From Paenibacillaceae bacterium (GTDB taxonomy: Bacteria > Bacillota > Clostridia > Lachnospirales > Lachnospiraceae), in contig SVDU01000019.1 of the NCBI GenBank assembly GCA_015057705.1, positions 1 to 64,000 on the forward strand: a stretch of DNA of 64,000 nt, written 5' to 3'. The position numbers were made by a program, and so were the translations under genes. The number at the start of each line of letters is the position of its first letter. Position 1 is the first letter of the stretch. Below are positions 22,809 to 30,378 of this stretch, in pieces. The notes under the pieces were generated by a model that saw only the letters and a list, made by a program, of their open reading frames with translations, did no database searches and had not been told where the DNA came from.

Positions 22809-22848
22809 AACTGGTCCTGCAGCATTTTTGCATGCAGGACCAGTTTTT
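22809..22848. terminator. Intrinsic terminator
   Basis: AACTGGTCCTGCA...TGCAGGACCAGTT followed by TTT. Confidence 0.85.
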
Positions 22849-23818
22849 ACTTGGAACTTTTCTTGGTCTGTGTCTCATAGGTTTTAAACTCATTATTCCA
22901 GGATTCAAACCGGGGATCCTGGCGGTGATCGGTCAGGAGGTTTAAACCGGATAAGTAATTTCCCATATAGGCAGAAACTTTTTTGGCTCCGTAATAGTTG
23001 ATATGATCTCCGCCGTCTCTGGTATCCGTGTTCCAGTCAATGGATAACTGGTCTAAAGACAGGTTAAGATCGATGTAATCAAGGTCATTTTTATCAGCAA
23101 ACTGTTTTACTGCATTATGTTTTGCATAAGTCCAGCATTTTGGAGAAGGAGAGCTGTATAAGACCAGCCGGATTCCTTTTTCCTTACATAACTCGCTGAT
23201 TTTTGTCAGATACAGATAGGGCTGATCCTGTATTACCTCAACCTCATCCGTCTCTTCTGTGTAAGAACCTCCCATATAAGGTTTGCTGTTAATATTATAT
23301 TGATAGCCCTTATATGCAGGAGATGGTTTTTCTGCCATATCAGCGCTTAAATTTTTCAACATATAGAAATGGAAATATCTCCAGTTGTTATGATACTGGT
23401 AAATGGGAAATATCTTTTTCGTTTTATCATCAATAATTGTTTCCAGAGCATTGATGTATTTAAAATCCCGAAAACAGGCATTGGTTTCCAACAGCACAAC
23501 CTTTGGAGACTGTTTATTTAACACCTTTTCCAGAAGATAATAGGTATCCTGAAGTCTCTGTGCGGGTACGCCTAAGTTAAAGCCAGTATACCCGTAAGTA
23601 TTCCAGATCTCCAAAGGAGAGATGCTGGTGGAACTTTCACTGTCTCCGATGGATACGTATCCGATGGTATTTTTTGGTTCTTTATAGATTCCTCCGGCTT
23701 TTTTATAAAGTCCTTCTGCTCCGGTGTTTGCTGGAAGGAACAGAAAGGACATGATATATAAAAGAAGCGTAAGTCCGGTAATAAAGGCTAATGTTCTTAT
23801 TGTGTTTCCTGCATGCAT
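22847..23818 (-). CDS. SGNH-like hydrolase (DltD-like position), membrane anchored
   Basis: N-terminal TM, 'YVSIGDSESSTS' (GDS) and C-terminal 'DGGDHINYYGAKKV' (DxxH); last gene of the operon. Confidence 0.65.
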   Translation of the reverse strand: MHAGNTIRTLAFITGLTLLLYIMSFLFLPANTGAEGLYKKAGGIYKEPKNTIGYVSIGDSESSTSISPLEIWNTYGYTGFNLGVPAQRLQDTYYLLEKVLNKQSPKVVLLETNACFRDFKYINALETIIDDKTKKIFPIYQYHNNWRYFHFYMLKNLSADMAEKPSPAYKGYQYNINSKPYMGGSYTEETDEVEVIQDQPYLYLTKISELCKEKGIRLVLYSSPSPKCWTYAKHNAVKQFADKNDLDYIDLNLSLDQLSIDWNTDTRDGGDHINYYGAKKVSAYMGNYLSGLNLLTDHRQDPRFESWNNEFKTYETQTKKSSK

Positions 23819-23829
23819 TCCGTCACCTC

Positions 23830-28341: not shown

Positions 28342-29678
28342 GATTGTGTTTCCTTTCCTGCCGGTTTTATGGGAAAAGTGGCGCAGGCTGTAAAAAGTGA
28401 TTCCGTAGTGAGGATTTCAAAATTCCCATCCATCTGCTCGGCAATTTTTCTGCATGTTTTCAATCCGATATTAGTGCTTTCCTGAAAGACCAGGTCAGTC
28501 CGGATTTCATTGGTAATGCTGATAATCAAATTGTCACCGTCTCTGGCACCTTTTACTACAACAGGAGTGCCGTGACCAGCATATTTTCTCACATTGGAAA
28601 ACAGGTTATCAAAGAGACGTTTTAGATACTGAATATCAATGAAAATGCTGCAGGGTTCATTCATAAATTCAGTCTGTACTTCAAAACCAAGGCTGTTTAA
28701 GTTAAATACATGTTCGCTTAACAGCTGTTGAAGCAGAATTCTTGCATCAAAGGTTTCCATATTCATAAGGATGGTATCCTTACCAAATACAAGGAAGTAC
28801 TGAAACAGTTTATCAGATAAATCTTTCAGCTGTATTGATTTTTCCTTACAGTTTTTAATGTATTTTTCCAGCTGCTCTTCAGAACGGTAGTCTTTGGAAT
28901 CTAAAATTTCAAGATATCCGATTAAAGAAGTTAAGGGTGTGCGGATATCGTGGGACATGGAGGTAATCAACTCGCTGTTTGCTTCCCACGCATCTTTTTC
29001 ACTTTTGTATCTTGTGATAATGGAATGACGCATATTATCTGCGTTTCTAGCCAAAAGTGAAATTTCATCATTTCCTTTATGAAATATCGGCTGTTCCAAA
29101 TTACCCTGTTCAATTAAAGATACTTCTTTTGACAGAAGAACAATCCGGTCAATGATCCGTCGGTTATAAAGAATAATAATAATAAAAAATACAATAAAGA
29201 ACATAATCCAGGAACAGTAAAGCACTACATCCAGCCATTTAATCTGGGAAGAATCGATGATGGAAACGGAGTAGGTGCCGTCTGAAAAGACAATATCACG
29301 TTCCTGCTGGTTGCAGCTTTCCACAATGGTTGTTGCTGTTTCATAGGAGGAATAAGAATCATTCCAGTAACCGGATTCATAAAGAATTTCATCTCCGTTA
29401 TATATGGTCAGATATACATATTTATGATTCTTGACCCATCGGGAGATAGCTCTTACATTTTTTACCGATATTTTATTTTTTCTTACGTAATTTTCAAAGG
29501 AATCCTGATAGGTGTTTAACCGACTCTGGACCGAGTCTTCATCCATGTGCTTCTTTGAAACCATGTAATCTCCCAGGTTATCCACAATCAGATACACGGT
29601 GAAGCTTAAAAATGCTCCAAGCAAGAGTACTAGTATCTGCTTATAGCGCAGTGAGGATAATGTTTTACCCTTCATCAA
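28338..29678 (-). CDS. HAMP-containing sensor histidine kinase
   Basis: Two TMs, HAMP, 'ELITSMSHDIRTPLTSLIGYLEIL' H-box, 'LFDNLFSNVRKYAG' N-box. Confidence 0.92.
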   Translation of the reverse strand: MMKGKTLSSLRYKQILVLLLGAFLSFTVYLIVDNLGDYMVSKKHMDEDSVQSRLNTYQDSFENYVRKNKISVKNVRAISRWVKNHKYVYLTIYNGDEILYESGYWNDSYSSYETATTIVESCNQQERDIVFSDGTYSVSIIDSSQIKWLDVVLYCSWIMFFIVFFIIIILYNRRIIDRIVLLSKEVSLIEQGNLEQPIFHKGNDEISLLARNADNMRHSIITRYKSEKDAWEANSELITSMSHDIRTPLTSLIGYLEILDSKDYRSEEQLEKYIKNCKEKSIQLKDLSDKLFQYFLVFGKDTILMNMETFDARILLQQLLSEHVFNLNSLGFEVQTEFMNEPCSIFIDIQYLKRLFDNLFSNVRKYAGHGTPVVVKGARDGDNLIISITNEIRTDLVFQESTNIGLKTCRKIAEQMDGNFEILTTESLFTACATFPIKPAGKETQS

Positions 29679-30378
29679 TCTGATATCCCTTTCCCCAGAC
29701 GGTGCGGATAATTAATGGATTATTAAAATCCAGTTCCAGTTTCTTTCTCAGCTTTAAAATATGAACCATAATGGTATTGGTGGAGGAAGGAAGAAACTTT
29801 TCATTCCATACCCCCTCATAGATGGCCTGAGCATCTTTTGCAGTTCCTTTGTTTTTGACCAGATACATCAAAACCAGATATTCCGTATCGGTAAGCTCTA
29901 TTTTCTGATTTTCCCGGTATACCCAGTGGTTTACCGTATCAATCACAATATCCTGAACATGGACTTCTGAAAGATTAACAGAAGATTCCGATTTCCCTTT
30001 GTAGACAACGTATCTTCTTAAGAGAGACTGAATTTTCATAAAAAGTTCTGCCTGGGAAAATGGTTTCACCAGATAATCATCGCCGCCGTTTTCGTAAGCA
30101 TCGTTTTTATCTGTCTCTTTTGATTTGGCAGTTAAAAATAATACCGGTGCGGAATGAAAGGTTCTGATTTGTGAACATGCTTCAATCCCGGACATACCTG
30201 GCATCATGATATCCAGTATAATCAGGTCGATATCAGAATTTTCTCTAACTGCTTTTACCGCATCGTTTCCGTTTGCGGCTTCTAAAACGAGATAGCCTTT
30301 GTTCTCCAGCTGTATACGGATTACTTCACGGATATCTGCGTCGTCATCTACCACCAATATCTGCTGTGTGGAACTCAT
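29665..30378 (-). CDS. OmpR/PhoB-family response regulator
   Basis: 'ILVVDDDADIREVIRIQL', 'DLIILDIMMPGMSG', C-terminal wHTH; start placed at MSSTQQ because the upstream ATG precedes the predicted transcription start. Confidence 0.92.
   Translation of the reverse strand: MSSTQQILVVDDDADIREVIRIQLENKGYLVLEAANGNDAVKAVRENSDIDLIILDIMMPGMSGIEACSQIRTFHSAPVLFLTAKSKETDKNDAYENGGDDYLVKPFSQAELFMKIQSLLRRYVVYKGKSESSVNLSEVHVQDIVIDTVNHWVYRENQKIELTDTEYLVLMYLVKNKGTAKDAQAIYEGVWNEKFLPSSTNTIMVHILKLRKKLELDFNNPLIIRTVWGKGYQIDEG

Follow-up and report, generated by a model that had tools for sequence, protein, structure and literature searches.

A dlt-like operon with a carrier-associated decarboxylase: a candidate envelope-acylation system with an acyl group other than D-alanine

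Gene content and conservation of the locus

The window analysed here is a stretch of 64,000 nucleotides from a Lachnospiraceae genome of the genus Lacrimispora (contig SVDU01000019.1 of assembly GCA_015057705.1), in which seven packed genes occupy positions 22847-30378 of the minus strand. In this order, they encode a response regulator, a histidine kinase, a stand-alone adenylation enzyme (A), a fold-III pyridoxal 5'-phosphate (PLP) decarboxylase (DC), an acyl carrier protein (ACP), an MBOAT acyltransferase and an SGNH protein (Table 1); the last five are referred to as the five-gene block. An initial annotation had proposed a dlt-like operon that decorates the cell surface with a decarboxylated amino acid, and its gene set, order, strand and overlaps were all recovered as given. 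We favour, with a probability of about 0.6, a self-regulated envelope-acylation operon that resembles dlt but employs another acyl group, according to the full mechanism proposed below.

The seven-gene arrangement is far beyond chance, because the five-gene block recurs in dozens of genera. A search of GTDB contigs returned 491 pattern stretches that encode a relative, 80 of which were kept for locus counts. A is accompanied by DC in all 80 loci, within 400 nt in 78 of them, and 62 additionally carry the ACP, MBOAT and SGNH genes. The kept loci span Lachnospiraceae, Clostridiaceae, Oscillospiraceae, Erysipelotrichaceae and other families, and the block recurs across Bacillota; the order adenylation-decarboxylase-ACP-MBOAT is thus found well outside the genome of the window. 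The nearest named relative of the window is L. defluvii, with 96% identity in the decarboxylase. Clear DC homologues (E < 1e-70) are present in about 30 of 98 relatives of this genome. Beside the window's own locus, these 98 relatives supplied 29 loci with A, DC, ACP and MBOAT as neighbours, one of which ends at a contig edge before A. At the same threshold, even samples of the order and of the phylum contained DC in 20 of 296 and 4 of 400 genomes, respectively. A description of the block was not found in the literature searched, in which subscription papers were sparsely covered. Two loci, L046 (Lacrimispora xylanisolvens ASCUSBR21) and L024 (G023), have A and DC, and in L046 also MBOAT, split by apparent frameshifts, reflecting either decay or assembly error.

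Table 1. Positions of the operon genes and of features discussed in the text
Feature	Position	Strand	Remarks
Degenerate second copy of the TTCTTAATAATTCTTAA box	30502-30518		
Probable response-regulator box	30457..30473	-	TTCTTAATAATTCTTAA; direct repeat of two CTTAA half-sites, 10 bp apart
Extended -10 promoter	30413..30440	-	TTGTTA-16-TATAAT with TG extension; sigma-70-like
OmpR/VanR-type response regulator	29665..30378	-	Response_reg and Trans_reg_C; vanR_ACDEGLN 208.5 bits, under cut-off 350
VanS-like sensor histidine kinase	28338..29678	-	HisKA and HATPase
A, stand-alone, DltA-like	26836..28341	-	AMP-binding; TIGR01733 (amino-acid adenylation) 326.6 bits, over cut-off 317.4
Pocket residues of A			D200, V201, K204, I243, L270, S272, L296, C304, N305 and K, equivalent to GrsA 235, 236, 239, 278, 299, 301, 322, 330, 331 and 517
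Codon of A residue K204	27730..27732	-	GrsA position 239; Met in DltA
DC, fold-III PLP decarboxylase	25649..26845	-	Orn_DAP_Arg decarboxylase family
ACP, acyl/peptidyl carrier protein	25417..25644	-	Phosphopantetheine Ser31 in LLDSFS
MBOAT acyltransferase	23830..25413	-	MBOAT family 61.6 bits, cut-off 27
Membrane-anchored SGNH-fold protein	22847..23818	-	N-terminal helix; GDS60; D268-x-G-x-H272

Three start codons had to be chosen. The response regulator most likely begins at the ATG at 30378, which is preceded by AAGGAGG, and the ACP most likely at 25644, the second Met of its open reading frame (ORF), 4 nt past the DC stop. For the SGNH protein the most likely start is 23818 (Met 37), immediately past the MBOAT stop, and with this choice an apparent 97-nt overlap with MBOAT disappears.

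Enzymes of the block and pocket codes of its relatives

The substrate pocket of A was read from an alignment to GrsA (1AMU) and DltA (3E7W, 3DHV), with the sequences checked against the PDB; residues are numbered as in GrsA. Its code, DVKILSLCNK, differs from that of DltA (DLMTMCTVAK) at eight of ten positions, and the Cys that DltA carries at 301 is missing. Of 78 full-length A enzymes from the cassettes, 76-78 retain each of D235, V236, K239, S301, C330 and N331, with position 239 being Lys in 77 and Arg in one. On the DltA model TIGR01734, A scores 278.8 bits, under the cut-off of 559.85. A model search did not find a canonical DltA in the window's genome, which has one MBOAT and one adenylation domain passing the family cut-off, and in the sample of the order a single genome of 296 had a true DltA scoring above the cut-off. 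The proposal that the adenylation enzyme charges something other than D-Ala is therefore supported by the pocket comparison, as far as a code can indicate it and, judged from sequence, the five-gene block is not an ordinary D-alanylation system.

DC combines a PLP-lysine motif (K53 in CFAMKANP) with the signature C323-T324..D327, which it has in common with BtrK and SbnH, and it retains the C-terminal sheet domain. BtrK is also its closest PDB match by sequence and the best fold match of its structural model (template-modelling (TM) score 0.86), followed by SbnH (TM 0.80). BtrK decarboxylates glutamyl-BtrI, and SbnH decarboxylates N-citryl-diaminopropionate (PMC7857480). Throughout the family the signature reads C-T (rarely C-S)-x-x-D, and the glutamate of the CE(S/T) motif of LysA (C-E-x-x-D) is absent. 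The window's DC (motif CTSSD) scores 174 bits on the LysA model, below the cut-off of 297.9, and its genome has a separate LysA-like gene, 21% identical to DC, with the motif CENND. We thus rejected an assignment of DC as housekeeping LysA. In a phylogenetic tree DC forms a single clade (99%) apart from LysA. The BtrK likeness drawn in that annotation stands for the fold, the active-site signature and the adjacent carrier gene, but in the tree BtrK does not fall inside the DC clade.

ACP contains the Ser motif LDS and matches the DltC model weakly (30.6 bits, cut-off 68). MBOAT, with 141.3 bits on the DltB model TIGR04091 (cut-off 375), has a catalytic H360 and a fused C-terminal hexapeptide, LIYAGF, with Y524 and the last residue F527; H360, Y524 and F527 are invariant in an alignment of 13 diverse members, and intact cassette MBOATs end in Y-x-x-F/Y. 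Such an acyl-shuttle motif has been demonstrated in PatA and DltX (PMC12148441). Its Tyr, normally on DltX, is here part of MBOAT itself, and in the window's genome the first residue of the motif is Leu, not Phe. The SGNH protein has no Pfam match, and its AlphaFold model (mean pLDDT 83) matches SGNH/GDSL hydrolases with E 6e-7; the nucleophile block GDS60, D268 and H272 are conserved in the alignment. The pair therefore combines a catalytic His and a C-terminal shuttle Tyr in MBOAT with an SGNH partner bearing Ser and Asp/His, and the SGNH protein is the probable final acyltransferase. An identification with DltD was not supported by the fold search, in which DltD ranks only 50th (TM 0.39). 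SGNH partners vary between MBOAT subgroups (LIYAGF-type, GGFIYAQF-type), and acceptors may differ for this reason.

When A was searched across the window's order, DltA-like stand-alone enzymes with other codes were recovered and their neighbourhoods compared. Of 14 A genes with the code DVKxxSxCNK or IARxxSQASK, 11 have DC within 6 kb, compared with only 1 of the 44 A genes with other codes (p 1.8e-8 by Fisher's test, a value that overstates independence, as the cassettes share ancestry). Two of the three DVK or IAR genes lacking a nearby DC have one elsewhere in the genome. Cassettes with the code DAKCxGLGMK, consisting of A, ACP, MBOAT and SGNH, have an aspartate-type racemase adjoining A in 15 of 20 loci (aspartate/cysteate-type; L125, L126, L130, L132, L133, L135, L136, L139, L148, L150, L153, L165, L167, L175 and L177); the L125 enzyme scores 212 bits on TIGR00035. 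They are candidate surface D-aspartylation systems. All 11 loci with the DSKDxxIVDK code (L118-L122, L124, L127-L129, L131 and L134) have a GNAT gene between those for A and ACP, which suggests that the surface group is an N-acylated amino acid. The code appears Glu-like; a literature search for printed non-ribosomal peptide synthetase codes of Glu, iso-Glu and iso-Asp adenylation domains returned none. Cassettes of the Lachnospirales hence pair each pocket code with a tailoring gene of its own, an observation that we present as new.

All DVK, DAKC and DSKD enzymes have Lys at position 239, where the IAR class has Arg and DltA has Met. When the pocket columns were left out, the resulting tree of A enzymes placed DAKC, DSKD, IAR and DltA in one clade each (99-100%) and the DC-linked codes at two or more separate positions. 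The DC-linked IAR class (L149, L151, L157, L162, L093 and L031) has lost the alpha-amine-binding Asp235 and carries Arg239; some of its operons lie near genes for an NAD-dependent epimerase, a polysaccharide flippase, an AT3 acyltransferase or YfhO, and not beside MBOAT. DltA-like enzymes with the codes DNLFLCLDVK or DIFFWALLDK (L137, L138, L141, L144, L155 and L163) have, in the examples scanned, FkbM methyltransferase, aminoglycoside-3-N-acetyltransferase-like proteins, KAS III or glycosyltransferase as neighbours and no MBOAT; these loci possibly serve amino-acyl-sugar biosynthesis.

Proposed chemistry and its alternatives

We propose an acidic amino acid as the substrate of A, with L-Asp as the most likely candidate and Glu as the alternative. 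A would activate it via its side-chain carboxyl and load it onto the Ser31-phosphopantetheine of ACP, with K/R239 holding the alpha-carboxylate of the side-chain-loaded substrate. The acidic substrate is suggested by the invariant pocket lysine together with the racemase neighbours of the DAKC relatives, and K239 is tied to such substrates because the other K239-coded cassettes carry a racemase or a GNAT. DC would then strip the free alpha-carboxyl on the carrier, in the manner of BtrK acting on glutamyl-BtrI, giving an omega-amino-acyl-ACP: beta-alanyl from Asp or gamma-aminobutyryl from Glu. In MBOAT, the acyl group would travel via the His360 site to Tyr524 in the enzyme's own C-terminal motif; from there the SGNH protein may transfer it to a hydroxyl polymer outside the cell, which would gain positive charge. 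Side-chain loading is a prerequisite of on-carrier action, since an alpha-decarboxylase acts only on a free alpha-carboxyl; that the IAR class has lost the alpha-amine Asp235 is consistent with such loading and with K/R239 holding the alpha-carboxylate. GABA (gamma-aminobutyric acid) thioesters cyclise and lactamise readily, and we therefore favour beta-alanyl over GABA, the example offered by the initial annotation, which is nevertheless a possible product. These parts of the proposal differ in strength. That a decarboxylated amino-acyl group other than D-Ala is installed on the surface appears likely, the sequence of side-chain loading and on-carrier decarboxylation has slightly less than an even chance, and beta-alanine as the specific product is rather doubtful.

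Several observations weigh against this proposal. K239 is not accepted as proof of side-chain loading, as it also occurs in DC-free cassettes. D235, the usual anchor of the alpha-amine, is kept in the DVK class and fits ordinary alpha-carboxyl activation too, which would make alpha-decarboxylation on the carrier impossible. In the tree BtrK groups with LysA rows (86% by the Shimodaira-Hasegawa-like approximate likelihood-ratio test, long branches). Genome G303 (L156 / L191) has a DVK-type A (DVKIFSMGNK) with ACP and transposase-like genes and no MBOAT nearby; neither the 20 kb examined nor, above threshold, the genome contains a DC. As to the acceptor, the sole substantial sulfatase-family match in the window's genome reaches 32 bits on the lipoteichoic acid (LTA) synthase model, whose cut-off is 970.

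The same end product would arise if decarboxylation came first, with DC producing free beta-Ala from Asp or GABA from Glu and A loading the finished omega-amino acid. Many fold-III decarboxylases use free amino acids, and in G224 and G209 the A and DC genes are found on separate contigs. However, a nearly invariant K/R239 makes little sense if the sole carboxyl is the activated one, and the closest folds of DC act on conjugated substrates, so that we consider this order of events unlikely. We give slightly lower odds to DC being an epimerase or racemase that acts on an acidic amino acid, whether bound to the carrier or free, whereby the block would install a D-acidic residue. DC also matches the Ala_racemase_N family, some sources label members 'alanine racemase', and the racemase adjoining A in DAKC cassettes presumably serves to install a D-acidic amino acid; yet the catalytic decarboxylase Cys, C323, and the C-terminal sheet domain are kept, and the closest solved relatives are decarboxylases.

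A different question is whether the machinery works as described on an acceptor other than teichoic acid, such as an exopolysaccharide, a glycolipid or a small molecule. The genome lacks a convincing LTA synthase, SGNH partners vary between cassette subgroups, and the surroundings of the IAR-class operons (epimerase, flippase, AT3 acyltransferase or YfhO) fit this idea; nothing speaks directly against it, and the favoured mechanism is neutral on the acceptor, but as a separate explanation we rate it as improbable. Very improbable indeed is the reading as an ordinary dlt operon for D-Ala into which an unrelated LysA gene has been inserted. The general gene types are alike and D235 is retained, whereas the eight exchanged pocket positions, the missing Cys at 301, the TIGR01734 score of A, the retention of DC in 80 of 80 loci and the separate LysA of the genome are at odds with it.

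With the Dlt system (DltA, DltC, DltB, DltX and DltD) the block shares a stand-alone A, a small carrier, an MBOAT with a conserved His and an extracytoplasmic SGNH-fold partner. It differs from Dlt by its non-D-Ala pocket, the added PLP decarboxylase, a shuttle motif fused to MBOAT instead of a separate DltX, an SGNH protein not recognised as DltD and, in Lacrimispora, a dedicated two-component system. Butirosin biosynthesis likewise unites a carrier protein (BtrI) with a fold-III decarboxylase bearing the CT..D signature (BtrK). Its product is an antibiotic, whereas that of the block is predicted for the envelope, and its carrier is loaded by the ATP-grasp ligase BtrJ instead of an adenylating enzyme. 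SbnH, which shares LCT..D, AcsE, FslC/FigC and MccE are similarly alanine-racemase-fold decarboxylases of already conjugated amino acids; no carrier protein is known to be involved in their pathways. The exosortase-A-associated pair TIGR03098/TIGR03099 also joins an AMP-forming ligase with a fold-III decarboxylase, but the scores obtained here are far below both cut-offs (DC 181 bits on TIGR03099) and the exosortase context is absent. PatA/PatB and AlgI-type O-acyltransferases match in the MBOAT with a C-terminal F/L-x-Y-x-x-F motif and an SGNH partner. Unlike the block, they use acyl-CoA and no carrier protein (PMC12148441).

Taken together, the block is real, conserved and non-D-Ala, and probably represents a variant of MBOAT-SGNH envelope acylation that includes decarboxylation on the carrier. 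The initial interpretation holds at the sequence level for the gene order, the pocket and the distinction of DC from LysA; it has to be qualified with respect to the position of BtrK and the lineage-limited two-component system. More broadly, and tentatively, Lachnospirales and relatives may largely have swapped D-alanylation for diversified dlt-like cassettes that each combine their own code with a dedicated tailoring enzyme (a PLP decarboxylase, an aspartate-type racemase or a GNAT); the DC class would decarboxylate on the carrier to place beta-alanyl or GABA esters on a surface polymer. According to textbooks, the small acyl groups on bacterial surface polymers are D-Ala, acetyl and succinyl. 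If correct, the proposal would describe a previously undescribed kind of surface modification, and a new surface chemistry for abundant gut Clostridia, in which canonical dltA is very rare. It would bear on surface charge, cationic-peptide resistance and host recognition, and would join two mechanisms previously described separately, namely the decarboxylation of carrier-tethered substrates and the export of acyl groups by an MBOAT-SGNH pair in which the shuttle tyrosine is fused to the MBOAT. The pairing of codes with tailoring enzymes in turn yields substrate predictions.

Promoter and two-component control

The promoter and an OmpR-type direct repeat are located immediately upstream of the response regulator, the first gene of the operon. 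In 11 aligned upstream regions from Lacrimispora and relatives, whose decarboxylases are 58-96% identical to that of the window, TTGTTATT and TATAATT are invariant, the core of the box is nearly so, and box and promoter together are the best-conserved upstream part. The window contains two box matches, as against 0.11 expected. TTCTTAATAATTCTTAA has a single exact match in the genome, and two-mismatch matches are at control level; further genomic copies were rejected, the near matches being at background level only. Box and promoter point to a dedicated, apparently self-activating OmpR-type system. The conserved promoter box, unique within the genome, thus supports the earlier claim that the operon is controlled by its own two-component system. 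The claim is restricted in range, however: outside Lacrimispora and its close kin, the five-gene block is not accompanied by the two-component genes in this form.

The promoter region separates the operon from a gene for an AIM24-family protein, which lies immediately upstream on the same strand (window 30595-31350). At 15259-16233 the window further contains an ORF that, on inspection of its sequence, resembles a fused MsrA-MsrB methionine sulfoxide reductase.

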